A DNA stretch of 64,000 nt. It comes from Mesorhizobium japonicum MAFF 303099. GTDB taxonomy: Bacteria; Pseudomonadota; Alphaproteobacteria; Rhizobiales; Rhizobiaceae. Made by a program: the position numbers and the translations under genes. The notes under the pieces are model-generated. The model was given only the letters and a program-made list of their open reading frames with translations, was not told the DNA's origin and ran no database searches. Positions 7,748 through 57,400 of the stretch are shown in pieces. The first letter of the stretch is position 1, and the number at the start of each line of letters is the position of its first letter. Where the stretch lies: NCBI RefSeq assembly GCF_000009625.1, contig NC_002678.2:5612001-5676000 (forward strand), read 5' to 3'.

Positions 7748-7861
7748 TCCGTTGTCCTCTTGCCCATATGGGTAATCATCGTCGAAAACTGTCGAGTCCC
7801 GTCGTCCATGACACGAAATGTTGACTCTGCCTTTGCAGCCTTTCCCGATGGTCCCATAATG
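7744..7861 (-). pseudogene. Residual toxin C-terminal tail, cut by RAYT copy 2
   Basis: Reading - strand from the RAYT terminal repeat, one frame stays open for about 38 codons, includes STFRVMDDGTRQFSTMI and ends in TGA overlapping the ATG of the 115-residue gene as ATGA. No ribosome-binding site or sensible start is seen, so this is read as the 3' end of a toxin whose remainder was replaced by the transposase element. It is too short to name a family. Confidence 0.45.
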
Positions 7862-8604: not shown

Positions 8605-8616
8605 CCCGCTAAGAGT

Positions 8617-15000: not shown

Positions 15001-18000
15001 TGTCATAGGTAAAATACTGGCTGATCGTCTTGGTCAGGGCGGGGTCGGTAAAGATCTGCACCCAGGTCAGATTGCCCTTGACCGGCACCCCCCAGACGGC
15101 GGTGCTGCCGTCATAGTAAGTGTATTTGTAGCCGACATAAGGATCCGTGGCAGCGAGACCGGCATGGGTGCGCTCGGCAATCGGGGCCGAGACGATGTAG
15201 GCCGAGGTGTTGGGCGAGAAGAAGCGCTCGGTCCAGGTCTCGTCGCCGCTGGCGTCAGTGCGGCCATAATCCTTGAGGCTGACGACATTGTTGTAGGCAT
15301 CGAAGCCGCGCTCGACCCGGAGCGTGCGCGTGACGTTCTCGGTCAGCGTCGTATCGGTTGCCGTGTTCTGCACCGTGTAAGGCTTGCTCGCCGTGTTGAC
15401 GGCATAGGTCTCGGCGACCTGCTTGTGCACGACACCCGCGCCATCCTTCCACACCGTCAGCGACGGCAGGCCATAGCTGGCCAGATCCTGGCGATAGGTG
15501 GTCGTCACCGTCGAGGGCGCCGTCTCGCCATTGGCCATCGGCCTGGTCTCGACGATCGAGGCAAAACCCAAAAACTTGCGCGCCGCCGGGTCGTATTTGC
15601 CGCCGGCATACTGATAGGTGCTCACCGCCGTCTGGCCACGGCCGTCGCTCACCGACAGCTTCGTCACCGCATGCACCACTTGCGGCAGGTAGTTGTTCGT
15701 CCAGGTCGACGACGGCAAGTACTCCACCGCGACCGTGCCGCCGAGCTCCGTGGTGATCTGCTTCAACAGGTTCGGATTGCCCGTGCCCGCGTTCGAGATA
15801 AGGTTCGGGAAGTCTGGCAGGCCATCGCCATTGAAGTCGCCGATGGTTGTTCCTGAACTTATTGAAGTAGGCAACGTGAACTCTATTGGCGTCATCGTGG
15901 TCGAGGACGGTCGCAGAGAGAATATCTTCACAGGGCCGGATGTCGGCGGCGAACCGATCCCGCCACCGGTGATGGTGACGACGTCGGCCTTGCCATCGTT
16001 GTCGAAGTCTCGAAGGACTCCGGTTGTTCCCGAAAGAGACGACACGGAAAGGCTTTTGAAGCCGATACCGGTCGAGAGCCATACTCCGGCACTGAGATTC
16101 AATCCGTCGTAGCGGACGATATCTGTTGCCCCGTCGCCGTTGACGTCCGCTAGAACGCAAGTCCCAGAGCCCGAATATTGGGTCGAAGGGCATGTGATAG
16201 AAAATGACGCACCGCTACTTTGCCAAACACCACCGGAAAATATTCCTTTCGTTACGGTTCCCCCGCTACCCCGAATGAGAGGCTGCTGTCGGCCGTTGCC
16301 GAGGAAATCTCCGACGCCGATCCCGCTGGCGCCGACCGTATCCACTCCGTCACCATTCGGATCTGCGACAAAAGCCGGGGCTGATGGAGAAGTGCTTAAA
16401 TTGGTACCAGCCGGAAACGCGCTACAGATAGTCTGATAGCTGCTTGGCGGCGTCGATGCACAGCTGGACGCGGTCATGGCCAGCTGTAAATCCGTCACAA
16501 GAATATAGGCTGATGGAGAATACCGTATTATCGGATTACCGTCGCGGGTGGTGCCGATCGATTGCCTGCCGTCACTATAGTATGCAAAATCCATAGTGTT
16601 TTTGTCCGAGATAAAACTCCCGGGGACTGTCAGATAGTAGGGTGGTGTCTCTGGGTTTTGTGCCGCAGAAGTTATCTCGGATTTTGTTCTAATAAATATC
16701 GACTTGGTATCAATCCGTATGCCGTTCAAGTTAAATTTTATAATCTGATTATACGTTCTTGTAGTTGTTGTCGTTTCTCCTTCGCGTCCACCGGACCTCT
16801 GGTCCGTAGCCTCTGAATAGTCGCCAAAAATCTCGTCTCGTCCGTCAAAGTCGAGATCGCCAACCTCTCTCGGTGCTTCAGTTTTTCGCTGGCCCCAAAT
16901 GAGAGGCTGGCCGCCTATATCCGATGCAACCGTCGAATACACCCCATCGGTGTTCTGATAGGTCATCTGACCGAGCACCTTCGATGTCCCGCCGGTGATG
17001 GTGCCGTCGGCGGTGCCGGTGGCGTCGGTACCGTAGCGGGTGACCTGGGTGAGGCGTGAGGCGTTGGAGAACGGCGCCTGGTCGTAGGTGAGCTTGTAGG
17101 CGCTGCGCACTGCGCCATTGACAATGACGCCGATCGTCTTGATGCGCCGGCTGGTCTCGGAGATGTCGCGGCCATTGCCCATCAGGATCATGTCCGGACG
17201 GGTCTCCAGATAGAATTTTACCACCGTGCCGTTATAGCTGACACTGTCAGGGTAGCAGACCGGGCTTGCGGGGCAGGTATAGTTGTAGTTGACCGTGTTG
17301 CCGTTGGTGTCGGTGACGGAGGTGAGCAGCCAGCGGTAGCTGTAGGCCAGATCATAGGCGGGCGTGCCGGCCGCCGGAGTGAGGTTGGCAACGGCCGCCA
17401 CCGAGCGGAAGGTCGACACGGTGCCGTCCCTGTCCGTCACCTTCCATTCATTGGTGGCGCTGTTCAGCGCGATGCGGCGGTAGCTCTCATTCTCCGTCGC
17501 ATACGTGCCGCCGGTCGCGCAGGAGGGCGACGCCATGCCGGCAAACGCAGGCCACCATCGCCTGGCCATCGAGCAGATAGATGTCGTTGGCGTCATAGGC
17601 CGGCATGCCATAGCCCGGTGTTGCCCGTTCGATGACGTCAAAACCATCGAGACCCCAAGCATAGCCCAGCCAGCCCTGATAGAGGCCGCCGAGCTTGGTC
17701 TTGCGCGACGAATTGTAGTTGAGCGCGATCTGCGGCTCGATGCCGTGGAAGGCGGGCACGTCGATGCCGATCGAATAGCCGAGATTGCCATTGCCGGCTG
17801 CCTTGGGCAGGTCCACCTTCGGCGTGCCGATCGCTTCGGGGTCGCCGCTGTCTGTCGTCGCGGCTGCTGCCGCCATTGCCTGCGCCGCCGGCTCCTCGGG
17901 TGCGGCCTCTGCGTCAGTGGTCTTGGCCGCCTTGCCGGCTGCCTTCGTGGTCTTGGTGTCGGCGGCCTTGGTGCCGTCGGTGGTGCTGGTGTCGTCGGCG

Positions 18001-18305
18001 GCCTTGGCGTCGGCCGGGTTGGCGCCGACCTTGGCCGCCGCATCGGGACTGCCGGATGAACCATCTCCGGTTGTCTGTACTGACGATGAACTCGATGGGC
18101 TGCCCGCGGCCTGTCCGCCGGCTCCCAGCGCTGCTCCGCCATTGCCGTAGCCGGCAGCAGAATTTCCGGCGGTCATGGGAGAGCTTTGGCTCTCCTGTGC
18201 AAGTGCTGCCATTCCTGCACTTCGGCTAATATAAGAGACAGCAGAAATATCCGCGCCGACGACACTTGCGGCAAGCACTGCCGCGCCAACAAGCAACCGT
18301 TTCAT
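12089..18305 (-). CDS. Secreted Rhs/SpvB-like polymorphic toxin, one-base frameshift near residue 255
   Basis: About 2,071 residues once one extra base is removed. Order: signal peptide [18 protein letters not shown]; Ala/Thr/Lys-rich linker (40-145); SpvB-like region ([15 protein letters not shown]); FG-GAP/VCBS-type repeats ([27 protein letters not shown]); many YD repeats ([20 protein letters not shown]); Rhs core end [16 protein letters not shown] and NPV-like [12 protein letters not shown], where the usual DPxG is DQNG. The last 204 residues (12092-12703) are a different domain resembling a PD-(D/E)XK nuclease. From 18305 the frame breaks at an AAA run (17543-17545); removing one base restores [20 protein letters not shown]. 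This may be a real mutation or a sequence error. The protein is presumably exported and kills competitors. Confidence 0.88.
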
Positions 18306-18669
18306 GAGACCCCCGAGCCAAGTTGCTTATCGTTACGCACCTTTCATTTGGCCGATACGACACGCCCTAGTCACAAGGCCAATATCCACAGACTTATTTT
18401 CGGAACAGAAAAAAGAACACTGTGCAGACTCAGTGAATGTTCGACGGATCGAGCATCCTTCGAATGATGCGATCCATCGCGCTGCATAGCCGGCATAGAA
18501 AGGCGGCGGAGAATTCATGGTGGCGGGCGCTGCATTTGTCATCCGCCAAGGGTGGGCACGGACAACTCTTCGCCAGCTCTATCGCCTTCGACGGCAATGA
18601 TCCATGCGCGCGCCTGTCGTGCGCTTCGTCGGTTCGTGTAAGCTCCGGCTGGCGATCGAGCCCGGCAGC
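18306..18669. other. Intergenic region upstream of the Rhs gene
   Basis: 364 bases between the Rhs start and the 3' end of the MarR gene. It should hold the Rhs promoter. The stretch 18370-18430 is AT-richer than its surroundings. No clear promoter, operator or terminator could be assigned, and the short frames do not look coding. Confidence 0.4.
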
Positions 18670-19308
18670 CTACACCGGCTCAGCCTCGTCCATCATCTGC
18701 TTCACCGCATCCGCCGACCTGCGCATGCTCGCTTCGTCCGTGGCCCAGCCGGCGAAGCGTTCCAGCAGGCGAGCGAACGTCACCAGCTCCTGCTCGTCCC
18801 ATTGCGCCAGGGACTCGGCGAAAATCCGCCATTTGGTCTGGCGCACCGCCGTCACCAGGCGCTCGCCCCTGGCGGTGAGCCTGAGGCAAATGCGGCGGGC
18901 ATCGAGTTGCGATGCGACGCGCAAGGCGTAGCCGCGCTCGACGATATCGGCCGAGATGCGGCTGGCACGGGACGGGTCGATCCCGAGGCGCTCGGCGATG
19001 TTGCCGACCGTCACCTCGTCCTGCGGCGTGTCGCCGACGGCCGGATTGTGCGCAATGGCGATGATCACATCGAGATGGCTCACTTCCAGCGAAGGGTCGA
19101 TACGGGCCAGGATCAAACGACCGAAGTCCCGTCGCTGGATGGAGCGGCGCACCTTGTTCAACACAGCATCGATGGCGGCGACGGCATCGGCCGCTGCTTC
19201 GGACAGGCCATTGCTGCGCGCCAGATCGGCGAGATCCTGATCGCCATGCGTCTTGGACAGGGGGGAAAATCGGTCGGGCTTGTCCGGCCTGGTATCGTCG
19301 CTGCTCAT
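18670..19308 (-). CDS. MarR-family transcriptional regulator
   Basis: Winged-helix repressor of 212 residues. The core reads VTVGNIAERLGIDPSRASRISADIVERGYALRVASQLDARR (recognition helix and wing, roughly residues 98-140). The N-terminal extension of about 45 residues is longer than in classical MarR. The ATG at 19308 is chosen over the in-frame TTG at 19326, although neither has a strong ribosome-binding site. It is divergent from an efflux pump with inverted repeats between, so it probably represses both itself and the pump. Confidence 0.85.
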   Translation of the reverse strand: MSSDDTRPDKPDRFSPLSKTHGDQDLADLARSNGLSEAAADAVAAIDAVLNKVRRSIQRRDFGRLILARIDPSLEVSHLDVIIAIAHNPAVGDTPQDEVTVGNIAERLGIDPSRASRISADIVERGYALRVASQLDARRICLRLTARGERLVTAVRQTKWRIFAESLAQWDEQELVTFARLLERFAGWATDEASMRRSADAVKQMMDEAEPV

Positions 19309-19328
19309 GTCACAGCGCGCTAGCAAAA

Positions 19329-19383
19329 ATATATGTCGGTGTCAATTGCATGCTGATAGCATATATTTGATATTGACATATAT
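19329..19383. promoter_or_regulatory. Inverted-repeat operator between marR gene and efflux pump
   Basis: ATATATGTC (19329-19337) and its exact inverse GACATATAT (19375-19383) flank an AT-rich core that also contains GCATGCTGATAGCATATAT. The right arm overlaps the pump's -35 element, so binding would block transcription. Confidence 0.6.
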
Positions 19384-19401
19384 CTGCTGCGGGCACATAA
19401 A
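19373..19401 (+). promoter_or_regulatory. Predicted sigma-70 promoter of the efflux pump
   Basis: TTGACA (19373-19378), a 17-base spacer and CATAAA (19396-19401) lie 26 bases before the ATG at 19427. The -35 overlaps an arm of the inverted repeat. Confidence 0.5.
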
Positions 19402-19426
19402 CCGCCCCCGAACGTCGGAGACACCC

Positions 19427-20956
19427 ATGAGCATTGACTCGACCCTCCCGGATGCGCCGCCCGCAGAGTCCGGGGCCAAGCCCGACATCACGACGCTGGT
19501 CGTCTATTCCGGCGCGCTGATCGCCATGTTCATGGCCACCATCGACATGCAGATCGTCGTCACCGCCTTGCCGACCATTGCCGGCGAACTCGGCAATTTG
19601 CATCTGTTCGGCTGGGTCGGCGCCGCCTATCTGCTGTCGACCGCCGCCGTCGCGCCGTTCTACGGCAAACTTGGCGACATGTATGGCCGCAAGAATGTGG
19701 TGCTGACGGCGATCGCCTTGTTCCTGCTGGGCTCGCTGGTCTGCGGCATGGCCTGGTCGATGGAAAGCCTGATCGCGGCGCGTGTCCTGCAAGGCATCGG
19801 CGGCGGCGGCCTGATGGTCTCGGCCTTTGCCATGATCGGCGAACTGTTCGGGCCGCGCGACCGCGCCAAATACCAGGGCTACAGCTCGGCGGTGTTCGCG
19901 CTGTCGTCGGTCCTCGGCCCGTTGGCCGGCGGCTATATCACCAGCCTGTTCGGCTGGCGCTGGGTGTTTTTGGTCAACCTGCCGATTGGCATCGTCGTGC
20001 TGGCGATCCTGGCGTTCGCCATGCGCAGCCGGTTCAACGAGAAGAGGCACAGCATCGACTATCTGGGCGGCTTGCTGCTGGCCATCGGCACCACCGCAAT
20101 CGTCTATTGGGGCTATCATCTGCTCGACCCCGCCGGACCGGACCTGCTCACCTTCGCGCTGCCGGTCGTCGCGCTGGCGGCAATCGCCTCGTTCATCCTG
20201 GTCGAGCGGCGGGCCGAAGAGCCGATCGTGCCCTTGCGGCTGTTCGGCTCCTCGACGGTGCGCATCGTCTCGGGCGTGTCGGTGGTCGCCGGGTCTGTGA
20301 CGCTTGGCATGTTCTTCTATTTCGCGCTCTACATGCAGACGTTGACCGGGCTCAGTCCGGCCGAAGTCGGCTTCCTGTTCCTGCCGGCTTCCTTGACCTC
20401 GATGGTCATCTCGATCGTGGCCGGGCGGGTGATTGCCGCGACCGGCCGCTACAAATGGATGCCGGTGGTGGCGATGGGTATTGGCGGGCTGTTGATGATA
20501 GGTTTTGTCTTCATCAATTCGCACACGCCGATCTGGGTTCTGGCGGTGATGATGGGCCTGTTCGGCATCAGCATGGGCCTGCAGTTCCAGGTGCTGATCG
20601 TGGCGATCCAGGCCGCAGCACCCCTGCAGGACATCGGCGCGGTGACGTCGCTGATCACCCAGGCGCGCACGATCGGCGCATCGCTGGGGCTGGCGCTGAA
20701 CGGCGCGGTGATGACCTGGGCCCTGAACCGGCAGACTTCGGAGCTTCCCGCCGATGCCGCCGCCCTGCTGCCGGATGGCCTGACCGGGCTGAACCCGCAT
20801 CTGGCGTCAAGCCTGCCGGCCGCGATCCGCGACGTGGTGCTCGCCCACTATTCGAGTGGTTTCAACGTGATGTTCATCTGGGTGGCGGCGCTTTACTTCG
20901 TTGCCATGGCGCTGACGCTTCTGCTGGAGGATATCCAGATCCCGAAGCGGGGCTGA
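19427..20956 (+). CDS. MFS multidrug efflux transporter, DHA2 (EmrB/QacA) type
   Basis: Inner-membrane proton-driven exporter of 509 residues with about 14 hydrophobic segments. The signature motifs are present: GKLGDMYGRKNVVL (motif A), ARVLQGIGGGGLMVSAFAMI (motif B) and LGPLAGGYITSLFGWRWVFLVNLPIG (motif C and the DHA2 hallmark). The start at 19427 is supported by GGAG seven bases upstream; upstream in-frame codons fall in the operator. The divergent MarR regulator suggests induction by its substrates, which cannot be told from sequence. Confidence 0.92.
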   Translation: MSIDSTLPDAPPAESGAKPDITTLVVYSGALIAMFMATIDMQIVVTALPTIAGELGNLHLFGWVGAAYLLSTAAVAPFYGKLGDMYGRKNVVLTAIALFLLGSLVCGMAWSMESLIAARVLQGIGGGGLMVSAFAMIGELFGPRDRAKYQGYSSAVFALSSVLGPLAGGYITSLFGWRWVFLVNLPIGIVVLAILAFAMRSRFNEKRHSIDYLGGLLLAIGTTAIVYWGYHLLDPAGPDLLTFALPVVALAAIASFILVERRAEEPIVPLRLFGSSTVRIVSGVSVVAGSVTLGMFFYFALYMQTLTGLSPAEVGFLFLPASLTSMVISIVAGRVIAATGRYKWMPVVAMGIGGLLMIGFVFINSHTPIWVLAVMMGLFGISMGLQFQVLIVAIQAAAPLQDIGAVTSLITQARTIGASLGLALNGAVMTWALNRQTSELPADAAALLPDGLTGLNPHLASSLPAAIRDVVLAHYSSGFNVMFIWVAALYFVAMALTLLLEDIQIPKRG

Positions 20957-47534: not shown

Positions 47535-48350
47535 TCAGCGCCTGAATCCGGCGCGAATCGAACGCAAGAGATCGGGGGTCAGCCTGACGCCTCGGTTGAA
47601 CAGGCCCGCTGGGGCCAGCGGCACGCCGGGCCGGCATCCCCAGGCCCCACCCGAATGTGGACGTGGACCGGCGGTGTGAACCGCGATCACCACGGGTGGG
47701 CCAGCCTGTTGGCGATGGATCCAGACTGGAGCGCCGCTGTGTCCCGGACAGGTATCGACGCTATAGAAAAGCTGCCGTTCGGTGATCCGGTCCAGGCGCT
47801 CGGAATGCTCCCATTGCGTCCCGTCCGGCTTGTCGGCCGGATAACCCGAAATGTGCAGCAGACGCGTGTTGCGAAGCCGCTCGAGGTCCTGACGGTTCGG
47901 CGACCAGAGCTGGAAGTGCCCGGGCGATGGCGAAAACGGCCGCTCGAGCTCGATCAACCCGACATCGTGCAGGCCTGACGGACGGCGGCGGTAAGGCGGG
48001 TTGACGTGCCATTGCTTGGCCCACTGCCAGCCAAAGGGCCGCGCGTCACGCGAGGCCCGACCCGGCGTGACACGAATGCGCACGGCGAGATTGGGCAGGC
48101 CAAGCCGCTGCCGGATCGGGCTGGTGATGCAGTGCGCCGCGGTCAACAGTCGCGTCGGCGAAATCAGGAAGGCGGTACAGCCGGTCATCCTGCCGTCGCC
48201 GAAATCGCGCTCGATGTGGCAGACCGCACTGTGCGGAAAGCGGTTGGTGTGGGTGACCCTGGCGCGCCCGTCCGTCGGCCCAACCACCGCATAGTCGGCT
48301 TCGTCCGCCAGCCGGTCGAGTTCGAAGGGCGCGGGCGAGAACAGCATCAT
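47535..48350 (-). CDS. Trypsin/V8-like serine protease (cluster gene 10)
   Basis: 271-residue chymotrypsin-fold protease with the full catalytic triad: TAAHC (His73), LHDVGLIEL (Asp129) and DTCPGHSGAPVW (Ser205). The form GHSGAPV and the general layout resemble V8/glutamyl endopeptidases. No signal peptide or membrane segment is seen, so it acts in the cytoplasm or leaves by another route. It is the last gene of a ten-gene - strand cluster, starting in an ATGA overlap with the gene before it. Its substrates are unknown; other products of the cluster are the obvious suspects. Confidence 0.88.
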   Translation of the reverse strand: MMLFSPAPFELDRLADEADYAVVGPTDGRARVTHTNRFPHSAVCHIERDFGDGRMTGCTAFLISPTRLLTAAHCITSPIRQRLGLPNLAVRIRVTPGRASRDARPFGWQWAKQWHVNPPYRRRPSGLHDVGLIELERPFSPSPGHFQLWSPNRQDLERLRNTRLLHISGYPADKPDGTQWEHSERLDRITERQLFYSVDTCPGHSGAPVWIHRQQAGPPVVIAVHTAGPRPHSGGAWGCRPGVPLAPAGLFNRGVRLTPDLLRSIRAGFRR

Positions 48351-48703
48351 GTCTCTTGCTCGTGTTCGGCCCCCGGTGAGGCGGCATCCGCGGGCATGAC
48401 ACCCTGTTGCGGTACATCATCGATCCCACCTTCATGCGCGGGCTCTTGCAACGCCTCGGCCTGATCCGTGGCAGCACTTGCAGTGAGGCCAAGCAGGCTT
48501 CGCAGGCGCTCCATCAGAATATGAGCCTCGTCGCCGCGGCCTTCGAGATAGGCCGCCGCGCGATCCATGAATTCCTCGTCGGAGCCGAAGGGTATTTCAG
48601 CTGGGCGCGGCGATGCGGCGCGCAGCGCTTTGACCTCCTGAAGAACGATGGCGTCGAGGTCGGCCCATACCGACCTTGCATGAGTTGCGGCTTGCCCGTG
48701 CAT
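48347..48703 (-). CDS. Small acidic protein of unknown function (cluster gene 9)
   Basis: 118 residues, helical and Ala/Glu-rich (WADLDAIVLQEVKALRAASP, AAAYLEGRGDEAHILMERLRSLLG), with an acidic, disordered C-terminus. No family recognised. AGGGAG lies seven bases upstream of the ATG. The stop overlaps the serine protease start. The size and charge would suit a chaperone, inhibitor or adaptor of that protease, but this is only a guess. Confidence 0.72.
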   Translation of the reverse strand: MHGQAATHARSVWADLDAIVLQEVKALRAASPRPAEIPFGSDEEFMDRAAAYLEGRGDEAHILMERLRSLLGLTASAATDQAEALQEPAHEGGIDDVPQQGVMPADAASPGAEHEQET

Positions 48704-48719
48704 GGGAATCTCCCTTGGT

Positions 48720-49421
48720 TCAATTGTTGCGCATCAGCGGCATTTCATCGAATGTGGTGCTGTTGGGGTCGTACAGCAGCGGGCGCTCCCGGTCCTGCAG
48801 CCAGCCTTCGTAGTTCCTGGCCCGCCTTGGATGCATCGCCTGGCGGGTGAGCCGGGCTGCCTGGACCAGGATCTGGCCCGGCTGCAGATTGCGGATTGCG
48901 GTGTTTACCCTGGGGTCGGCCCGGCTCGGTTGCCGGTAGTGTTCGATAATTCTCTGGGCGATCGAATTGTTGCCTTTGGTCATGCCGATGCTGAGCGGCC
49001 GGTCGCGGTCGATGCCGGCGCGGGTGATGCGATAGACCTGCGGTCCCGGCGCCAGGAACGGCCGCAGCAAAGCGTCGACGTGTCCGCCGCGGCTCGCGGC
49101 AGTGCGTGCCGCGTCGATTGCCGCCAGCGAGACCGGCGGCGTCCAGCCGCGCCAGCCCGGCAGTTGTGACCCGCGCGCCCGCACCGAGGTCTGGCCACGC
49201 GCCGGCCTTGGGGTACGCCCGCGCCGTATGGCCGTCTCATCGAAGGAAGCGAGGTCTCCGCAACTGCCGCAGCCGCAACTCGGAAAATGCCGGCGCCTGA
49301 CCTCGACGGCGCGAAAGCCTTGCTGCCGGCGACAGCGCGCGCAGCCGCATGGCGGACGGTGAGCGACTGTTTGCGCGGCCGCGTTGACCAGCGCGTCGAG
49401 TTGTTCGTCGAGATATGACAT
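48720..49421 (-). CDS. Cys-rich protein with GIY-YIG-like domain (cluster gene 8)
   Basis: 233 residues. The N-terminus carries two Cys clusters, CGCARC (25-30) and CGCGSC (49-54), likely metal sites. Residues 129-220 resemble a GIY-YIG nuclease: PQVYRITRAG, PLSIGMTKGNNSIAQRIIEHY with Arg157 and His161, ARNYEGWLQD with Glu205, and a final PLLYDPN. The YIG element is degenerate (SIG). If correct, it would be a DNA-cleaving or DNA-binding component; the match is by eye and could be fortuitous. AAGGGAT precedes the start. Confidence 0.7.
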   Translation of the reverse strand: MSYLDEQLDALVNAAAQTVAHRPPCGCARCRRQQGFRAVEVRRRHFPSCGCGSCGDLASFDETAIRRGRTPRPARGQTSVRARGSQLPGWRGWTPPVSLAAIDAARTAASRGGHVDALLRPFLAPGPQVYRITRAGIDRDRPLSIGMTKGNNSIAQRIIEHYRQPSRADPRVNTAIRNLQPGQILVQAARLTRQAMHPRRARNYEGWLQDRERPLLYDPNSTTFDEMPLMRNN

Positions 49422-49465
49422 GCCGATCCCTTTCTCGTAACTCGTTTCTCCGCTCGGGCTCGGAT

Positions 49466-50500
49466 CTAGCCGGGTCCGGCCACCATGCTTGCGTCCGATG
49501 CCGTCGCCCGCCGGCGCAGCCTTGCCACGGTTCGTTCCCTTTGCTCGACGGTCGGCAAGGGAAAGGACGGCCGTGCCGGTCGGGGTGGGCGAATGTCCAG
49601 GTAGCGCGCGATGTTGGCGTCCGGGCTGAGCTCCAGCTGGAGAATGGAGGCCGGCGCTGAAAGCAGCGAGACAACGCCCGGGCCGTGACCCGCGACAGTG
49701 GAGTCGCTGTGCACGATGACGCCAACCGACACATGTCCTCCCAACCGCGACCGGCCATAACGGTTGTCGGCATCCATGATGCCGACAATGTCGCCGAAGC
49801 GCAGCGATCCAAGCTTGTAGCGCCGCACCATGCCAGGATCGGACATCTGGATGTCGTAGTCGCCGCGCAGCACATTATTGCGGCCGAGACCCGAGCCCAT
49901 GACGCGGGCAGGGATGCGGTGCGTCACCTTGACGTGGATCCTGCCGTTGCGCTCGACCGGGCGCCAGCGCGCCAGCAGCCTTGGCGAACAGTTCCAGATC
50001 GCGACGTCAGGATAGTCGGTCAGGCGCAGGCCAAGCCCGTAGGCCCAGACCTGGATGCGGTCGCCGATCGCCATCTGCCGCATCGCCGGCAGCGGAAAGT
50101 CGATCAGCACGGTGTCGACGCCGCCATGCTTGCCGGTCACCACGCCGCGTGCGCCGGCCGCGCGTCCTGACGTGACGATGGCGTGGTTGCCGACGCAGGA
50201 ATAGCTCTGCAGCGCCTGGTTGGCGGCGTCGGGGTTGCCGCCGGCGGCGCGCGCTTCATTGCGGATCGACACCGCCGGTTCGACATGGTCCCCGGCCAGC
50301 CCGACACAGGGGTCGCCGACGCGGTGGTTGAGCACGATGCCGCCGGTGCCTGGCAGAGAGCGCGGCCTGCCATCGTAACCGATGCGCCATGGAGTGCCCC
50401 TCTCCGTCGGCGATGCCACTTGTCCTGCGACGCTGATCATCACCAGGTCGCGCGCATTCGTCCGCAGCCCGTGCACCGGGTGAATGCGGGGCGGTTTCAT
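49466..50500 (-). CDS. DUF4438-like protein (cluster gene 7)
   Basis: 344-residue beta-rich soluble protein. It resembles DUF4438 family members: GTPWRIGYDGRPRSLPGTGGI, NHRVGDPCVGLAGDHVEPAVS, ALQSYSCVGNHAIVTSGRAA, GARGVVTGKHGGVDTVLIDFP, MAIGDRIQVWAYGLGL, HSDSTVAGHGPGV. The biochemical function of the family is unknown. The C-terminal 60 residues are proline/arginine-rich and look like an added tail. The start overlaps the end of the preceding gene by ATGA. Confidence 0.75.
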   Translation of the reverse strand: MKPPRIHPVHGLRTNARDLVMISVAGQVASPTERGTPWRIGYDGRPRSLPGTGGIVLNHRVGDPCVGLAGDHVEPAVSIRNEARAAGGNPDAANQALQSYSCVGNHAIVTSGRAAGARGVVTGKHGGVDTVLIDFPLPAMRQMAIGDRIQVWAYGLGLRLTDYPDVAIWNCSPRLLARWRPVERNGRIHVKVTHRIPARVMGSGLGRNNVLRGDYDIQMSDPGMVRRYKLGSLRFGDIVGIMDADNRYGRSRLGGHVSVGVIVHSDSTVAGHGPGVVSLLSAPASILQLELSPDANIARYLDIRPPRPARPSFPLPTVEQRERTVARLRRRATASDASMVAGPG

Positions 50501-51333
50501 GCCGCGGCCTCCGCCGGGACCACATCGTACCAGAGCGCGCAGGCATTGCGCCAGGGATCGTCCGGCGTCCCGTCATCGTGGTCGGCCGGATCTTCCAGCG
50601 CCCAGTCGGTCTCGCTCCATCCGTCGGGCAGCGCCAGGATGACCGGGGCGACAACCTGGACGATCGCGGCATTTCGGCCGCTCGCGGCGATTGGAGCCGC
50701 AGCGGGCCACAGCGCCGGGCCGGACCATCCGGGGATTGCTCCAGGATGGCGTTTGGTGGGAAATGCCAGCCGCTCGAGATAGTCGCACAATGGCGGCCTG
50801 GCGCCGTCATTGCCGGCGATGGTGAGAATATAGGTGCTGTCGGGCTGAAGCGCGGCGGAAAGCGCGATCACGTCGCGCGCGCATTCGTCGAGTGGAGCGG
50901 CGGTGCCTGCCACATCGCCAAGACGTGTTTCAAGCGCGGCGCAGCAGCCTTCGAAGCGCGGCAACAGGGCTGTTTCCTCACGCTCGGGCAGCGCGCTTTC
51001 ATACTGGGCGTCGCCGATCCAGTGCACCCGGGATGACAGGCGGCCATTCTGCCACGCCCGGCGCCATGGTTCGAGCTCCAGAGTCAGTTCCTTGAGGATG
51101 GCATCGCGCGTGCCGGGGGCGAGCCAACCGCCTCCCATCTGATCGGGCCGGCGCCGATAGTATTCGTCATTGTCGAGCAAGGTGTAGAAGCCGCGCGGCA
51201 GCCACACCCGCGCTGATAGCGAAAGCGTTACCGTCACCAGCAGCCCCATCGGCGACAGTGCCAGCGGGGCGTCGATGACGATGTTCGGCGGCTTGGCCGC
51301 GAAACGCCCCGCAAGAGCAAGTTGGTGGTCCAT
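50497..51333 (-). CDS. Hypothetical protein (cluster gene 6)
   Basis: 278 residues, no family recognised. Pro/Trp-rich and probably soluble, with a beta-rich N-terminal half (LSPMGLLVTVTLSLSARVWL) and an acidic Trp-containing C-terminus (PDGWSETDWALEDPADHDDG). The ATG at 51333 is used because GAAGG lies nine bases upstream; a GTG at 51342 would leave no spacer. It overlaps the DUF4438 gene by four bases, indicating linked production. Confidence 0.75.
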   Translation of the reverse strand: MDHQLALAGRFAAKPPNIVIDAPLALSPMGLLVTVTLSLSARVWLPRGFYTLLDNDEYYRRRPDQMGGGWLAPGTRDAILKELTLELEPWRRAWQNGRLSSRVHWIGDAQYESALPEREETALLPRFEGCCAALETRLGDVAGTAAPLDECARDVIALSAALQPDSTYILTIAGNDGARPPLCDYLERLAFPTKRHPGAIPGWSGPALWPAAAPIAASGRNAAIVQVVAPVILALPDGWSETDWALEDPADHDDGTPDDPWRNACALWYDVVPAEAAA

Positions 51334-51363
51334 CGCAGACACCCTTCAGTCCCGGCGAACGGT

Positions 51364-52467
51364 TCAGGCGGCTATTCGCGACGCGGTGTTGCGGTTCAGC
51401 CCATATGACCAGTGCACACGATCGCCATCGAGGCCGGGGAAGCGCCGCCCTTCGCGTGTCAGCCGGTAGGCCGCCAGCCATGCGTCGGCCTGCGCGCCCA
51501 TCTTCTTGGCGTCCGCGTCGAACTCCGCCGGCGTGATCGTCGTGCGGAAATCGTTTTCGGCGATGTATTGCAGGATTCTGCGCCCCGCATCGGCCATCTT
51601 GGCCCGTTCCGACATCTCGGTAGCGCCGCCCAGATGACGGTTGGCGACGGCTTCGATAACGTCCCATTTGGTGTTGGCGTCGAAGGATTTCTTGATGTCC
51701 GGCGCGTCGAACAGCTCGAAGATCTGCTGTACGTACTGTCCGGTTTCACGGGTCAGGGCCAGGATGTTGCCATAGCTCGAACGGTCGAGGTGATAGCGCA
51801 GGTCGGTGCCGACGCGCTGCACCGTGGCCAGCGCCGCGAAAGGCCGGTCGTTGATGGTGGAGCTGCCGCGAATAACCTGACCGATGGTCAGATCCTGGAA
51901 ATATTGCGACATCGCATTCATGAAGGCGACCAGCTGGAAGTGGAAGCTGCGGTTGACGATGGCTCCGGCGGGCACCGGAGCGCGACCGTAGTTGAAGACG
52001 CGTCGATAGGCGATCAGCCGGTCACGGCGCTTGTAGCGGATTGGGCGCCATTTCTCGAGTATGTAGAGCCCGCGCGCGCCGGGGCCGCGCTGGATGCGGA
52101 TCTGGCCGTTCTGGAACAGCCGGCGCAGCACATCGACCACCTGGAACAGCTTCATGCGGTCCATTTGGTAGATGTAGTAAAGCTCGGCCGACGCCTGCAG
52201 CTGCGGTGGTATGATCGATTCGTCGAAATCGTTGCGCAGCAGCGGCATCTGCAGCGAATCGAACGGCTTGATCGGTCCGTCGCCAAAGCCGACCAGATCG
52301 GCGAAACTGGTGGTCGTGGCACTGGACGAGCGATCAAGCAATTCCCCGTAACGACCCTCGAATTCGCTCTCGAAAGCGGCGCGGTCGGCCGGCGACAAAC
52401 CCGCCAGCTCGTCCCTGAAGAAGCGCTGGAACAGCCGTTGGATGACCTGGTTGGATTCACTAGCCAT
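51364..52467 (-). CDS. Hypothetical protein (cluster gene 5)
   Basis: 367 residues, no family recognised; largely helical, with no signal peptide. Features include FQRFFRDELAGLSPADRAAFESEFEGRYGELLD at the N-terminus, a basic RRLFQNGQIRIQRGPGARGLYILEKWRPIRYKRRDRL and many aromatic residues, suggesting a structural or binding protein rather than an enzyme with recognisable active site. GAGG lies upstream of the ATG. The four 16-bp tandem repeats sit between it and the preceding gene. Confidence 0.75.
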   Translation of the reverse strand: MASESNQVIQRLFQRFFRDELAGLSPADRAAFESEFEGRYGELLDRSSSATTTSFADLVGFGDGPIKPFDSLQMPLLRNDFDESIIPPQLQASAELYYIYQMDRMKLFQVVDVLRRLFQNGQIRIQRGPGARGLYILEKWRPIRYKRRDRLIAYRRVFNYGRAPVPAGAIVNRSFHFQLVAFMNAMSQYFQDLTIGQVIRGSSTINDRPFAALATVQRVGTDLRYHLDRSSYGNILALTRETGQYVQQIFELFDAPDIKKSFDANTKWDVIEAVANRHLGGATEMSERAKMADAGRRILQYIAENDFRTTITPAEFDADAKKMGAQADAWLAAYRLTREGRRFPGLDGDRVHWSYGLNRNTASRIAA

Positions 52468-52505
52468 AATCAGACCTCATCTTGCTCGAATTGGCTGCTC
52501 GTAGT

Positions 52506-52569
52506 TCTCAGGCACTTGGTTTCTCAAGCACTTGGGATCTCAGGCACTTGGGATCTCAGGCACTTGGCG
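52506..52569. repeat. Four tandem 16-bp repeats within the cluster
   Basis: Units at 52506, 52522, 52538 and 52554 read TCTCAGGCACTTGGxx, with one substitution in the second unit (AAGCAC). The block covers the last codons of cluster gene 4 and the gap to gene 5. It could be a slippage-prone spacer or a protein or RNA binding array. Confidence 0.7.
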
Positions 52570-53230
52570 GCTGTTGGCCGCCGGACACTGCGTCCTGGCT
52601 GGCGGCAATCGCGTTCATCACGGCTGGCGCGAGGTCGAAGAAGCGCACCAGTTCGCTATCGGTGACGACCGACGGCAGGCCGCCGCTGAACGTGTTGGCA
52701 TCGCGCAGGCGCTTCACGAACTCGTTGCGGCGATTTTCCTGCGGCTTGCCCTTCTGGAACGCCACGATGTCCTGCAACGACGCGAATTTCGCCTGGTTGA
52801 ACCAGCGCCCGGCGATTGTCCGGCCGACAATGTCGCCCGACGTGTCGACAGCGGCGGCATAGAGCGCCGTGACATTGTCCTTGTCGCGCAGACCAAGCGA
52901 CTGCACCGTTTCATCCAGCCTGTTGATCGCCGTGGTGATCTCGCCGAGCTTCTTGTCGATGGCGTCGCCATCGGGCAGTCCAGTCGCGATGGTTTCGATC
53001 GCGGCTATCAGCCGGTCGAAAATCTGCTTCGACCGTTTTCCATCGGGGAACTCCCTGATTGCGCTGGCAACGTCGCCGATGGCGGTCTTGGTCCTGTCGC
53101 CGCTGGTGACGACCTTGTCGGTCAGACGATCGATCGATTGCGGTGTCTCGGCCTCGACCTCGAAGCGGGCCTTGACCCCGGCGTGGAACTTGTTGGCCGG
53201 GTGGTAGGGAAACGGAATCTTCGCAGCCAT
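52556..53230 (-). CDS. Hypothetical protein (cluster gene 4)
   Basis: 224 residues, no family recognised. The N-terminus reads MAAKIPFPYHPANKFHAGVK; the middle is helical with heptad-like spacing (ETPQSIDRLTDKVVTSGDRT, TTAINRLDETVQSLG), possibly a coiled coil. The C-terminal part resembles SLQDIVAFQKGKPQENRRNEF. No signal peptide. GGAGAGGAG lies upstream of ATG 53230; the frame is open to 53437 but without coding signs. The 3' end runs into the 16-bp tandem repeats. Confidence 0.75.
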   Translation of the reverse strand: MAAKIPFPYHPANKFHAGVKARFEVEAETPQSIDRLTDKVVTSGDRTKTAIGDVASAIREFPDGKRSKQIFDRLIAAIETIATGLPDGDAIDKKLGEITTAINRLDETVQSLGLRDKDNVTALYAAAVDTSGDIVGRTIAGRWFNQAKFASLQDIVAFQKGKPQENRRNEFVKRLRDANTFSGGLPSVVTDSELVRFFDLAPAVMNAIAASQDAVSGGQQPPSA

Positions 53231-53253
53231 TGTCGTGCTCCTCTCCTGCCAGC

Positions 53254-55014
53254 TCAGGCTGACCAGTAGTCGGGACGGTTCTGACCCATGCTCGCCATGG
53301 AACTGGCGATCGGCGACGGCATCTGGACCGGGCTCGGCAGATTGGTGCCAAGGCCGAACATATCCTGGAGGATCGCACTTATCATCCAGCGGATCAGCGA
53401 CTGATTGTTGGGGAAATTGAAGACGTTGAAGTCGCATTGCGGCGTCAGCGAACGCACCAGGCGTTCCGTCTGGTCCTCAGCCTGGTAGGCGATACGCAGC
53501 TCACGCACCATCAGCGACTTCAGGCCCGGGTCCCAGGCCGCAGGAGCGCCGAATGGGTCGAGCAACTCATCACGGATGACACTGAGCTTGTTTTTCAGCT
53601 TGTCGCTGAATTCACACAGAAGCACGCCCGGATTCTTCAACTGGTCGGTCAGGTCCAGCGCCGCGCCGATGGCGAGGCCAACGGCGGTAGCCCGCCTTTC
53701 CTGTTCGCCGAGGCCGTCCGGATCCGTGCCGACCGCATAGAGGTCGATCGCCCTGTCGAGCAGGAACAGCAGGTAATCGAGCAGCACCTGGCAGGAGATA
53801 TCGTCGTCATCGCAGCCGCAGCCGGCGAAGCAGTCGACCTGCTCGAGCAGGAAACCGCGCGCGATGGTCAGGTTCATCAGCCGGATGGCGCCCTGGTCCG
53901 GTCCGCCGGCGCCGTAAAGGCCATAGACGATGATCGGCGGGCGCGCGACGTAGAGCAGCCGCGAGCTGCCTTTCGAGACGAAGGCGTCGACGAACAGCTG
54001 CAGGCTGGAGACGAATGCCACCAGCGGCGGCGATTCCGGCGGGCCCGAAGTGATCGGCACATCGATCGGAACCGGGATGCTCTGGCCGAACTGGATCAGG
54101 CGCTGGAAGCGGTGAACCAGCATTGCCGACGCGGTCGACAGCTCGCGCAAGCCTTCGACGCTTGCCCCGGTCGAGAGGTCGACAAGGTCGTCCATCGCTT
54201 GCGACAGTGCGTTCTCTTCCAGCAGCGCGCGCAGATCCGCCTGGCCGCCGGCCTCCAGCTGCTGCACCAGATTTCGGTAGGCCTCGATGCCGCGCGGCCA
54301 GTCCTCCTGGCCAAGCGTGCTTTCAACCGAACCGGTCAGGCTGCGCAGCGCCATGATGACGGCGTTGCGGCGTGCCTGCAGTTCTCCGGCCGCCGAACGC
54401 ACGATCGAGGTGCTGCGGGTGATGCCGTTGGACGCCAGCCCCTCGCCGATGGCGACAAGAATGAGCCCGGCCAGCACATCGCAGCTCTGGGCAAACCGCC
54501 TGAACAGGATGGCGCTGCCGTCGGTGAGCGTGCCGACATAGCGCGCCAGGCGCGAATACTCGCCGAGCTGGCGGCGCGCCGACATCGCACGGTCGTGATT
54601 GACCGAATCGAGAGCGAGCCTGGCGGCAGCCAGTCCATCATTGGCGAGCTGCCGGATCGAGCGGCCCCAGCCGATCATCTCGATGCGGATGTCCTTCAGC
54701 GGCGAGGAGGTCGAAAGCGTCTGCAGGTCGCGCTCGAGATCGTCCTGCGCCTGTGCCATCTCGACGGAGGAGGGGCCCGTGTTGCGGGCTTGCGGCACAT
54801 AGTCGGGCACGCTCGAATAAGGCAGGCCGGCTTGTTCGCGTCGATCCCTGTCTGCCTCCTCCGGATAGAAGTTCAAGAGAGCGTTGGCGATCTGGTCGGG
54901 ATCGCGCGGGTCACTCACGCGCAGCGTCTTGCGCAGCAGATTGTCCACGGCAACCGTGGCAGGAGACCGAAATTTCGAGACCGGGCTGGCGGCGGCTGTA
55001 AATACGTCGACCAT
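53254..55014 (-). CDS. Large hypothetical protein (cluster gene 3)
   Basis: 586 residues, the largest product of the cluster, no family recognised. Mostly alpha-helical with no signal peptide. A Cys/Asp cluster (VDCFAGCGCDDDDISC, about residues 395-410) could bind metal and recalls the Cys clusters of gene 8. Moderately hydrophobic stretches (LLDYLLFLLDRAIDLY, VLAGLILVAIGEGLA) occur, but no clear membrane helix. GAGGTGAG precedes the ATG. It could be a scaffold or shell component; this is not supported beyond size and position. Confidence 0.78.
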   Translation of the reverse strand: MVDVFTAAASPVSKFRSPATVAVDNLLRKTLRVSDPRDPDQIANALLNFYPEEADRDRREQAGLPYSSVPDYVPQARNTGPSSVEMAQAQDDLERDLQTLSTSSPLKDIRIEMIGWGRSIRQLANDGLAAARLALDSVNHDRAMSARRQLGEYSRLARYVGTLTDGSAILFRRFAQSCDVLAGLILVAIGEGLASNGITRSTSIVRSAAGELQARRNAVIMALRSLTGSVESTLGQEDWPRGIEAYRNLVQQLEAGGQADLRALLEENALSQAMDDLVDLSTGASVEGLRELSTASAMLVHRFQRLIQFGQSIPVPIDVPITSGPPESPPLVAFVSSLQLFVDAFVSKGSSRLLYVARPPIIVYGLYGAGGPDQGAIRLMNLTIARGFLLEQVDCFAGCGCDDDDISCQVLLDYLLFLLDRAIDLYAVGTDPDGLGEQERRATAVGLAIGAALDLTDQLKNPGVLLCEFSDKLKNKLSVIRDELLDPFGAPAAWDPGLKSLMVRELRIAYQAEDQTERLVRSLTPQCDFNVFNFPNNQSLIRWMISAILQDMFGLGTNLPSPVQMPSPIASSMASMGQNRPDYWSA

Positions 55015-55025
55015 GACATCTCACC

Positions 55026-56318
55026 TCATGCAACGAGTGCGGCTGGGGACGGTTGCGCAGTAGGCCGTCGGTTTGCCTGACGCTGGGCCAGGTTTCTGAT
55101 GACAAGCTTTGCAATGGCGTCCGGTTCGGCGCCGGCTTCCAGCGCGAACCGGCTGGCCGACACAAGAAAACGTGGCGGCAGGTCGGGTACTTGCCCCGCC
55201 GCGATCTGGATTCCGCCACGACGGATGCGGGCTTCGTCGGCGCGCGTGAAAGGGATGGCGTCGGCCAGCGCGTGCTGCCCAAGACCCCGGCGCGGCTGAT
55301 AGGCGATCTCATCGACCACCGCCGGAATGACGCGAGGAGCCGAAGCAAGCAGGACCGGCGGCAGCCTGTGGCCGCGCGCCGGATTGTAAAGGCCACGCCA
55401 GACGCGTTCGGCGCGCGCCGCCTCGGCGGCAAAGCCCATGCGACGCAGCATTTCGGTCAAGATCAGAACCCGGATCCAGCCGGTTGGATGCGCCCCCCCG
55501 GGGCGATAGGTGAGGGCACGCGCGCCTGGATGGGCGAGGAATTCCATCATGCCCCAGACCGACGCGGTGCCGCCGAGCAGCAGTGCGGCGAGGTCGGCGA
55601 AGATTTCCTTGTGCCAGCGGCGCAGGATCGTCACCACCAACGGGTCGAAACGCATCGAGGCCAGGCGGTTGGCGACCGCTTGCGCGTTCTCCTGCCACAG
55701 GCCCATGTCGGCCTGCAAATTGTGGGCGACTTCGTGCAGGAACACGGACTGCCAGGGATTGTCGCGATCCCAGGGAATGCGGATCACCGGGAACGGATTG
55801 CTGTCGCCGAGCAAGCGGGCGAGGGCTACGCCTCGGCGCTGCGTGGCCGGCGAATAGCCGTGTTCCATGTAGGTCAGCGGCTTGAGCAGCGGGCCACCAA
55901 AGACGCCCGGCAAGGCCGCGCGGACGACCGTGTAGCAGTCGAGCGCGATCGCGTCATGGGCGGCGAGCGCCGGCGCGAAGCCTGAGCCGCGCTGCGACAT
56001 CACCTCGAAGAACATGCCGAAGGTCCGGCGCAGCCGATCGATCCTGCGGTCGAGCATCGCCATCTGGGTGAGCGCGGCCTGGGCCGTCGCGGGCGGCCAG
56101 GCGCGTTCGATCTCGGCGATATGCCGGTTGATGGCATTGCCGATGGTCGCCAGCCGCTTGTTGGCGGCATGGAAGTGAGCCCGCGACGGCGCATAGGGCA
56201 GGTCTTCGGGACGAAGTCCGATGCGCCTCGGTGTCAGGCGGTTGAGGCGTTGTGCGCGAGCTTTCAAAGCCCGCAGCTTGGTGTCCAGGAACCGCCTGGT
56301 CGAAGAACCCGTGCGCAT
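55026..56318 (-). CDS. HExxH zinc metalloprotease (cluster gene 2)
   Basis: 430 residues. The zinc motif FLHEVAHNLQ (His195, Glu196, His199) is followed about 40 residues later by HKEIFADLAALLLGG, whose Glu238 is the likely third ligand, a gluzincin-like spacing. The N-terminal 110 residues are basic and helical; no signal peptide. No named peptidase family could be assigned. ATG 56318 is chosen (MRTGSSTRRF) with AAGGA upstream; the frame remains open to 56450. It lies between the acidic-repeat protein and the 586-residue protein. Confidence 0.8.
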   Translation of the reverse strand: MRTGSSTRRFLDTKLRALKARAQRLNRLTPRRIGLRPEDLPYAPSRAHFHAANKRLATIGNAINRHIAEIERAWPPATAQAALTQMAMLDRRIDRLRRTFGMFFEVMSQRGSGFAPALAAHDAIALDCYTVVRAALPGVFGGPLLKPLTYMEHGYSPATQRRGVALARLLGDSNPFPVIRIPWDRDNPWQSVFLHEVAHNLQADMGLWQENAQAVANRLASMRFDPLVVTILRRWHKEIFADLAALLLGGTASVWGMMEFLAHPGARALTYRPGGAHPTGWIRVLILTEMLRRMGFAAEAARAERVWRGLYNPARGHRLPPVLLASAPRVIPAVVDEIAYQPRRGLGQHALADAIPFTRADEARIRRGGIQIAAGQVPDLPPRFLVSASRFALEAGAEPDAIAKLVIRNLAQRQANRRPTAQPSPAALVA

Positions 56319-56350
56319 CGCCACGATCCTTCTTGTTGCACCGACTGGGT

Positions 56351-57400
56351 TTAATTGGGCCGGATGGTGATGCTGACCGGACCGCGGATCACGATACGCC
56401 GCCGGCGCCCTTGATTTGGGCCATATCCGCCAGTCCAACCGCCTGGCCAACCGCCGGCAGCCCGCCCCAAGGCCCGTCCGGCGATACGCGCCAGGTTGCG
56501 TCCTGGGGCCATGCCGGCGCGAACCGCCGCCGCGGTGCGGCGCACGATCTGGCGCCCTCTCTGCAGGGGTCGCGTCAACTGCCGGCGCAGACCCTGCCCG
56601 CGTGCCGCGACGCGACGCGCGGTTCGTGCCAGAACCAGTGGCCGGACCGATGCCGGGGTGCGGCGCGTGACGGCGGTGCGGCGGACGCTGTTGGCGATGC
56701 GCGGCAGAGCGCGGATCGCGGTCGGACCGCCACGGTTGACGAGCTGGGTGGCGGCACGGCGCACGGTGCGAACCGCCTGGGTGCGTGCGGCCGCGGGCAT
56801 GCGCACCGCCACCGGGCCAAGCACTCGCCTCGTCGCAAGCGCGGCCACAACGGGAATGGCGGCACGATTGCGCACCGCGAGCTCGGCGAAGGCGTCAAGC
56901 GCCTCGTCCTCGGAGGCTTCGTCCGCCATCAACTGGCCGACGACATTGGCGATGCCACCAATCGCGGTGCCGTAGCCGGGAATAAGGCTGGCGACCGGCG
57001 CAACGGCGCGAGCGATGCGGCCGATTGTGGGAGCGGCACGTCGGACCGTGCGCACGACGCCGCGCACGCCGCGGGCGATGCGGCGGAAGAACTCGTCGCT
57101 GTCTTCAGCCGCAAGCGCGTAGCTCATGGCCTGATCCCAGGCATCGTCGTCGGACTCATCGCCTTCATCGAAACCGTCGCCTTCGTCGAACTCGTCACCG
57201 GCATCGAATTCGTCGCCAGCGTCCATCTCGTCGAAGCCCGAGGCCTCGAATTCGTCGCCTTCGTCGAACTCGTCGCCTTCGTCGGCCTCATCGAAGCCGT
57301 CGCCCTCGTCCATTTCGTCGAATTCGTCGTAGCTGTCGGCGGGGCCTTCCGCTTCATCAAAGGCAAGGTCGTCGAACATCGATTCGTCATACCCGTCCAT
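56351..57400 (-). CDS. Acidic-repeat/glycine-zipper/basic-tail protein (cluster gene 1)
   Basis: 349 residues in three distinct parts. Residues 1-95 are almost only Asp, Glu, Gly and Phe in repeats such as DEGDEFDEGDEF. Residues 100-155 form amphipathic and Gly-rich helices (RRIARGVRGVVRTVRR, LIPGYGTAIGGIANVVGQLM). The remainder is strongly basic, with many RR pairs (RTARRVAARGQGLRRQL). No signal peptide. The extreme charge separation suggests self-assembly, membrane insertion or nucleic-acid binding with an acidic prodomain. First gene of the cluster, with GAGGAG upstream of its ATG. Confidence 0.82.
   Translation of the reverse strand: MDGYDESMFDDLAFDEAEGPADSYDEFDEMDEGDGFDEADEGDEFDEGDEFEASGFDEMDAGDEFDAGDEFDEGDGFDEGDESDDDAWDQAMSYALAAEDSDEFFRRIARGVRGVVRTVRRAAPTIGRIARAVAPVASLIPGYGTAIGGIANVVGQLMADEASEDEALDAFAELAVRNRAAIPVVAALATRRVLGPVAVRMPAAARTQAVRTVRRAATQLVNRGGPTAIRALPRIANSVRRTAVTRRTPASVRPLVLARTARRVAARGQGLRRQLTRPLQRGRQIVRRTAAAVRAGMAPGRNLARIAGRALGRAAGGWPGGWTGGYGPNQGRRRRIVIRGPVSITIRPN

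Follow-up and report, generated by a model that had tools for sequence, protein, structure and literature searches.

A rare, conserved operon in Mesorhizobium japonicum as a candidate polymorphic-toxin-type system with exchangeable cargo

The stretch of DNA analysed here is a window of 64,000 nucleotides from the genome of Mesorhizobium japonicum MAFF 303099 (contig NC_002678.2, positions 5,612,001 to 5,676,000), in which ten genes follow one another on the minus strand between window positions 47535 and 57400, numbered g1 at the high-coordinate end to g10 at the other. We consider it somewhat probable that this operon encodes an undescribed system of the polymorphic toxin type, in which a conserved chassis collects tagged cargo proteins. 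We observe conservation of the genes and of their order, variable cargo genes, toxin domains in related loci, N-terminal tags on part of the cargo, and a regulator. All ten open reading frames listed in an earlier note on this DNA are present at the coordinates given there, and they are not chance reading frames, because the same ten genes occur in the same order in seven Mesorhizobium loci (L002-L008). The genome consists of 7,596,297 bases in three contigs, with a chromosome of 7,036,071 bases.

Scanning genome contigs with g5 as the query yielded 62 loci, here called type I, which span the Proteobacteria, Cyanobacteria and Myxococcota. Their hosts include Mesorhizobium, from which all the nearest g5 relatives come (96-100% identity), Sphingomonas, Thiocapsa, Aromatoleum, Methylococcaceae, Burkholderia, Roseateles, Pseudomonas, Nitrosomonas, cyanobacteria, Corallococcus and others. 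Searches with tblastn recovered g1 in 48 of the 62 loci, g2, g3 and g7 in 57 each, g6 in 43, g8 in 11, g9 in 9 and g4 in 8; g10 gave 20 matches, one of which (in L035, inside g2) was false and was dropped, leaving 19. Many loci end at contig edges, and full loci were defined as those with at least 6 kb before and at least 4.5 kb after g5 (n = 42). Among these, g2 and g3 are present in all 42, g1 and g7 in 41 each and g6 in 30, and the order g1-g2-g3-g5-g7, counting the members present, is collinear in 42 of 42. The earlier note had suspected a conserved operon, and the genes indeed form a same-order unit across phyla in every locus where this could be judged; with the unit conserved and its order kept, homologues do not occur only singly and in unrelated contexts. 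Eight reconstructed homologues with in-frame stops (two each for g2 and g3, one each for g1, g4, g6 and g7) were included in the presence counts and excluded from alignments and motif counts. The alignments used 53 of 60 (A1), 44 of 55 (A2), 43 of 53 (A3) and 27 of 56 (A5) rows, near-identical rows being mostly dropped, and alignment A4 (g6) holds 43 rows, some of them g6-like rows added by hand; gene calls outside annotated records were heuristic and made for this analysis, and one set of maps with many wrongly picked antisense frames did not enter the description of the chassis.

The operon is a rare, patchily distributed conserved unit. Only one of 297 genomes in a family sample contained g3, namely that of the window itself, and g5 was found in 3 of 398 genomes of a phylum sample (own genome counted; one of the three has the type II form described below) and in 6 of 386 genomes of a cyanobacterial sample (starting genome counted). 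Phage and plasmid origins were considered and rejected: no g5 relative was confirmed in IMG/VR and none was found in phage records, plasmids yielded no g3 relative, and five plasmid records held distant g5 relatives only (26-33%).

Many loci carry extra genes between g5 and g7, or behind g7, and it is these that we regard as cargo. When 23 cargo-like proteins (10 + 6 + 7) were scanned against Pfam, six passed the curated cut-off. The matches are Ntox5 in L031 (65.8 bits, in a gene between g6 and g7), two that lie behind the regulator in L061, namely Ntox16 (50.1 bits) and DUF2272 (128.4 bits), trypsin in L029 and L040, and Peptidase_M15_3 (71.2 bits) with PG_binding_1 in the type II locus L079. 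Four more proteins had suggestive matches below the cut-off, to Aspzincin_M35 with an HExxH motif (L024), GIY-YIG (L015 and L081) and OmpA (L042).

Among the N-termini of the cargo proteins a sequence resembling F-x-x-D-V-M-D-D-L recurs, which also opens g1. A good share of the otherwise unrelated cargo has this short, acidic and amphipathic tag in common with g1; the window form of it is the g1 N-terminus, MDGYDESMFDDLAF. With a profile built from g1 N-termini only, 67 cargo-slot genes outranked 166 control genes (medians -3.3 vs -7.9; score of at least 4 in 10 of 67 vs 2 of 166) with a p value of 1e-7, which is optimistic because many of the slot genes are orthologous to one another. In a composition-preserving shuffle test on the first 50 residues of 20 hand-picked families, g8, g9 and g10 included, p was below 0.05 in nine of the families vs one of 44 control genes, and the summed tag score of 168.8, vs a shuffle mean of 92.0 (sd 9.4), was reached in none of 2000 shuffles. 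The L042, L036, L029 trypsin and L061 DUF2272 proteins were not significant (p 0.39-0.62). A profile-free test, in which seven cargo proteins from five Methylococcaceae loci were compared by BLASTP, pointed the same way, several of them having N-terminal tags of 20-31 residues that resemble the start of g1. The g5 proteins of these loci are 91-97% identical and only one cargo pair is related in its body (36% over 218 aa), yet the N-termini of a trypsin and a 155-aa protein of one locus match over 31 aa at 55% (E 3e-6), those of two proteins from different loci over 20 aa at 60% (E 1e-3), and weaker N-terminal matches have E values of 0.02-0.04. Such a pattern is what a machine with constant parts and exchangeable, tagged cargo would leave. 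Variable toxin domains behind a common N-terminal part are thus seen in several related loci, and the pattern is weak for g8 to g10 of the window.

More distant g5 relatives (about 220-245 bits) led to six loci of a second subtype, type II (L065, L078-L081 and L083), which hold g1-like proteins, g2, g5 and another middle protein. The g1-like proteins are homologous to g1 (98.8% probability, E 8e-17), whereas the middle protein, which lies between g2 and g5 and measures 411-652 aa, is unrelated to g3; a link between the two was rejected at 0.5% probability. Because g1, g2 and g5 are present in type I and type II, we take them as the core of both subtypes. This core probably also includes a LuxR-type regulator, a protein of that kind being seen by eye nearby in four of the six type II loci (L078, L080, L081 and L083). 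In L081, the products of five of 19 genes start with LFEAP or LFETP; two of them are g1 paralogues, and the other three are cargo proteins unlike one another. LFE[AT]P opens none of 998 gene products in the 62 type I loci and none of 71 in four further type II loci. As far as these N-termini indicate, g1 and cargo have a tag in common in L081 too, although its sequence is a different one.

Still more distant g5 relatives, in L064 and L066, both adjoin S8 peptidases. Nearby are also an alpha/beta hydrolase and a peptidoglycan-binding protein in L064, and an N-acetylmuramoyl-L-alanine amidase in L066. On the latter, a Burkholderia pyrrocinia plasmid, four proteins that by eye are mutually similar and share a motif like FPxFVxxLIxGVF (7551-8636, 14190-15563, 15567-16868 and 18002-19456) adjoin the distant g5 relatives, the S8 peptidase and the amidase protein of 1254 aa. 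The system may have a third and more distant relative in the L066 group.

Among the chassis proteins, g1 to g7, only g7 has a convincing match to a known family. The first gene, g1 (56351-57400, 349 aa), encodes a protein with an acidic N-terminal third, a central stretch and an arginine-rich C-terminal half. The charge split reported in the earlier note is strict by residue counts, with 48 D/E and no K/R in residues 1-100 and 3 D/E and 39 K/R in residues 166-349. The protein ends in the tail IVIRGPVSITIRPN (56354-56395, minus strand), with the consensus GPVxIxI; in 41 of 47 stop-free g1 homologues GP[VAT]x[IVL]x[IVL] lies within the final 25 aa. There are at least 398 g1 homologues, and the 120 listed carry no functional name except for one labelled a kinase by its source; the only library match is a weak one to a PHROG tail tape-measure family (E 0.0064). 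The core gene g2 (55026-56318) encodes a predicted zinc peptidase of 430 aa when read from the first ATG, as was done here, while the list of open reading frames favours an earlier TTG. Its zinc-binding motif HEVAH lies at 55722-55736 on the minus strand, as checked by alignment and coordinates. The fuller motif HExxHN...WHKExxxDL is present in 46 of 53 homologues, and in alignment A3 the H, E and H together with a distal E and D are invariant, which agrees with the earlier identification of an HExxH metalloprotease, here found to be a core protein in 42 of 42 full loci.

The other core protein of unrecognised family, g3 (53254-55014, 586 aa), had no relative in PDB and Pfam searches. No known family was found for g4 and g6 either. 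The fast-evolving g4 (52556-53230, 224 aa) looks coiled-coil-like by eye, and its place is often taken by a reading frame without detected similarity. The most conserved chassis protein is g5 (51364-52467, 367 aa), with a mean column identity of 74%. Its AF2 model is all-helical (mean pLDDT 76, pTM 0.67), and a fold search with this model gave no clear match, so that for g5, the protein checked in this way, an ordinary housekeeping fold did not emerge. When 8000 candidates from a protein collection were scored, the g5 family came to at least 847 members; the 120 that were listed carry neither a Pfam domain nor a functional name. Another fast-evolving chassis gene, g6 (50497-51342), encodes 281 aa from a GTG or 278 aa from an ATG start; the opening CVLDPxLAL of its relatives and its conserved acidic positions in alignment A4 (D24, D57, D111, E115 and D157) may recall a PIN-type nuclease. 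The gene overlaps g7 by four bases (ATGA, 50497-50500).

For g7 (49466-50500, 344 aa), the DUF4438 resemblance noted earlier was borne out, since both DUF4438 domains match in Pfam (177 and 152 bits; E 1.6e-52 and 1.3e-44) and the comparison with PDB entries 3n99 and 3dcl of the TM1086 family gives an E value of about 1e-89 with nearly the whole profile covered. These two entries hold 30 and 5 chains; the chain counts may hint at a pentameric ring, and g7 could bring such a ring to the assembly. The usual hydropathy threshold for a membrane span is about 1.6. Residues 21-39 of g6 and 180-198 of g3 each have a mean hydropathy of 1.74, which makes membrane contact of these two proteins possible; the other window proteins do not exceed 1.52. 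Judged by hydropathy alone, the window proteins lack a secreted-type start, except that residues 21-39 of g6 are hydrophobic.

In the window, the cargo would consist of g8 and of a pair formed by g9 and g10. The cysteine-rich g8 (48720-49421, 233 aa) was compared in the earlier note to GIY-YIG proteins. This likeness has indirect support only, through a protein in the same slot of L015 (13090-13722; 27% identity over 156 aa, E 2e-5) that itself matches GIY-YIG models below the cut-off, and not directly, as none of ten sequences (g8 and nine homologues) matched the GIY-YIG Pfam models; we regard the C-terminus of g8 as a probable GIY-YIG-type nuclease. The small acidic protein g9 (48347-48703, 118 aa) has counterparts by eye (DLDALVLAEIESL) that precede g10 in L013, L014, L015 and L053. 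The idea that g9 provides immunity to g8 was put aside, because g9-like genes accompany g10 in L013, L014 and L053, which lack g8. The last gene, g10 (47535-48350, 271 aa), overlaps g9 by the four bases ATGA at 48347-48350; this overlap and that of g6 and g7, both reported before, are real, and the genes are tightly spaced. Its trypsin-like character, also reported before, is confirmed by Pfam (E 6.1e-11), and the His and Ser motifs are present in 16 of 19 homologues. The trypsin stands among or behind the variable genes in L029, L040 and L060, and its N-terminus resembles the g1 tag in L040 and, less clearly, in L029. Since it occurs in only 19 of 62 loci, is placed with variable genes and has a g1-like tag in L040, g10 is better read as cargo. 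Of the two maturation proteases proposed in the earlier note, g2 thus keeps its place as a core protein with a conserved HExxH motif for which a processing role is possible, whereas the trypsin behaves as cargo.

An eleventh gene, P0001 (46862-47350, minus strand, 162 aa), lies 184 bases past g10 and encodes a protein of the LuxR/GerE type with a C-terminal GerE helix-turn-helix (52.8 bits against a cut-off of 23.5; E 3e-14), so that the earlier statement that no regulator is included was wrong. This regulator family is found near 54 of the 62 loci: downstream on the same strand in 34, upstream and divergent in 13, and downstream on the opposite strand in seven, which are six Corallococcus loci and one Myxococcaceae metagenome-assembled genome. 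Among the eight loci with no regulator match, L012, L029, L041 and L048 end at most 0.7 kb downstream, and L033, L040 and L046 end at most 0.7 kb upstream. In the Chromatiales loci L013, L014, L015 and L053, a methyltransferase-like gene, recognised by eye, separates the trypsin from the regulator.

How could such a system work? We suggest that the LuxR-type regulator controls the building of the complex, which would take place in the cytoplasm, and that a chassis protein recognises the tag as a docking signal; g5 is the first candidate for this protein because it is the most conserved. The g1 protein could be an inner scaffold or co-cargo, with its acidic and basic parts and its GPVxIxI tail holding the assembly together, and g2 may process or gate it. 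The complex would then be released by lysis or by another route, harming competing bacteria. Bacteria are proposed as the targets because peptidoglycan hydrolases and Ntox domains are found among the cargo, and release is a conjecture because no secretion component is recognisable. More tentatively, and with slightly less than even confidence, we propose that g1, g2, g3, g5 and g7 form an undescribed toxin-delivery machine that has no sequence relationship with recognised secretion and contractile systems, collects any cargo with a short acidic N-terminal tag and delivers it to other cells, the second subtype (EFE/LFEAP) having the g1, g2 and g5 core with another tag and middle protein. The multiprotein assembly suggested in the earlier note remains plausible given the conserved multi-gene unit, whereas its proteolytic maturation by both proteases is only half borne out and a particle is so far unsupported. 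Swappable toxin cargo, common N-terminal tags and the regulator go beyond what that note contained.

Several points weigh against our favoured interpretation of a chassis with tagged cargo. The tag is weak in the cargo of the window itself (shuffle p 0.24 for g8, 0.14 for g9 and 0.08 for g10), 11 of the 20 families are individually non-significant, some of the hand-picked families were chosen for eye-catching N-termini and one of them (L053) is a second g1-like protein. Likewise, the many orthologues among the cargo-slot genes inflate the profile ranking, and L081 is the only type II locus in which the LFEAP tag was seen. A recognisable domain is missing from 13 of the 23 cargo-like proteins, which had no matches or weak and uninformative ones, and L025, L059 and the Corallococcus loci have no cargo gene between g5 and g7. 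No immunity genes were noticed by eye, and no search aimed at them was made. Furthermore, comparison of the window proteins with Pfam and NCBIfam revealed no recognisable secretion component in the operon, one stretch each in g3 and g6 would allow membrane contact, and the system is known here from sequence alone.

One rival reading is that the operon is an accessory payload system for an unlinked extracellular contractile injection system (eCIS), preparing the toxins carried by its tube. The eCIS marker Pvc16_N was above the cut-off in 31 of 62 cluster genomes (11 of 21 and 20 of 41) and in 14 of 298 other phylum-sample genomes, a difference with a Fisher p of 1.4e-16, the window's genome left out, that ignores relatedness and genome size and rests on a Pseudomonadota-only background which is narrower than the cluster genomes and includes at least one operon genome (G460). 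Of 21 cluster genomes, 15 had a match to the sheath family PF04984, 11 of them over the cut-off, and 12 had the type VI marker PF05591, both without a phylum background, so that nothing is concluded from either; the sheath count would fit the eCIS explanation, as would the weak tape-measure match of g1. Payload signals at the N-terminus are described for eCIS as well (PMC11495950), and Ntox5 is listed with the PVC (eCIS) export pathway in the table of PMC3482391. The window's genome has an eCIS-like locus at C1:5355592-5380000 (L070/L071), about 300 kb from the operon, with Pvc16_N and a sheath, as well as genes that by eye resemble tube, PAAR and baseplate genes; no linkage to the operon was found, and the two share no gene. 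Elsewhere, g5 and Pvc16_N were on different contigs in 28 of 30 genomes, most of them drafts in which nearness is not strictly excluded, and more than 500 kb apart in the other two, whereas PMC11297309 places 88% of the eCIS toxins of its set no more than ten genes away from the eCIS. The same paper reports no conserved signal sequence, and the one signal described there in detail has a positive N-terminal charge, unlike the acidic and conserved tag of the operon. In 31 of 62 cluster genomes the marker does not reach the cut-off, and five of these, among the 21 compared with the sheath family, have no sheath match either. The association is strong and unexplained; we take it as shared ecology or an indirect partnership, and think it unlikely that the operon loads an eCIS.

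Quite unlikely, in our judgement, is a role in intracellular defence, in the form of anti-phage activity or abortive infection, where the nucleases, proteases and a possible PIN-type g6 would kill the infected cell and the chassis would restrain them. Nuclease-like and peptidase cargo and the patchy distribution (the g5 counts in the phylum and cyanobacterial samples) would suit such a role, but the chassis proteins g1-g7 had no PADLOC match at E 0.1 in a scan that did not extend to g9, the matches obtained being weak ones for g10 and helix-turn-helix matches for the regulator. Peptidoglycan hydrolases (DUF2272/CHAP, and M15 with a peptidoglycan-binding domain) make little sense in the cytoplasm except for lysis, and the flanking genes are common to five of the seven Mesorhizobium loci, so that there is no obvious defence-island insertion in this genus. 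It could also be argued that g2, g5 and g7 are conserved like enzymes and that DUF4438 occurs in Thermotoga as TM1086, which would fit a complex for metabolism or storage, with unrelated toxin genes simply accumulating near it. That g1 shares tags with otherwise unrelated cargo, and that cargo is inserted inside the operon between g5 and g7, makes this very unlikely.

If a chassis with tagged toxin cargo is indeed what the operon encodes, an undescribed apparatus for antibacterial proteins would lie among the "hypothetical proteins" of sequenced genomes, that of a model rhizobium included. DUF4438/TM1086 would gain its first context, and the tag would provide a means to recognise new toxins. 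A description of the operon was not met in the open-access PMC literature, searched with a few terms.

Comparison with known proteins and systems places the operon in outline. The g7 protein resembles TM1086 of Thermotoga maritima (3n99, 3dcl) over nearly the whole profile and differs in its setting within an operon. We know of no function for DUF4438/TM1086, and the open-access literature searched held no paper on DUF4438 and none joining TM1086 with Thermotoga maritima. No leader domain or secretion component was found above the cut-off when the ten window proteins were compared with Pfam and NCBIfam. Membership of the type VII (WXG100) class was not indicated, the N-terminal part of g2 scoring 14.6 bits (cut-off 44.85) and 13.1 bits (cut-off 27.3). 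Encapsulins recognise their cargo by a short peptide, usually at its C-terminus. As in encapsulins, for which PMC8346489 describes a dedicated loading mechanism, cargo would be brought to a protein assembly, but an HK97-type shell is not found among the window proteins by sequence matching to Pfam and PHROG, where no match was convincing. With eCIS, including the Photorhabdus virulence cassette, the operon would share payloads with N-terminal loading signals (PMC11297309, PMC11495950). It differs in that no sheath, tube, baseplate or AAA+ ATPase was found among the ten window proteins (Pfam, NCBIfam and PHROGs), in its acidic, conserved tag and in the lack of linkage to eCIS in the 30 genomes examined. 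From the polymorphic toxin systems it is set apart by a shared part that is a tag of some 10-30 residues and not a trafficking domain, and by a chassis that fits none of the delivery routes described in the pertinent sections of PMC3482391; because the trafficking features tested are absent, we do not file it under any known delivery class. It is these systems that it nevertheless resembles: toxin, nuclease and peptidase domains of various kinds follow a common N-terminal part, Ntox5 and Ntox16 occur among them, both named in PMC3482391, and the distribution is wide and patchy.

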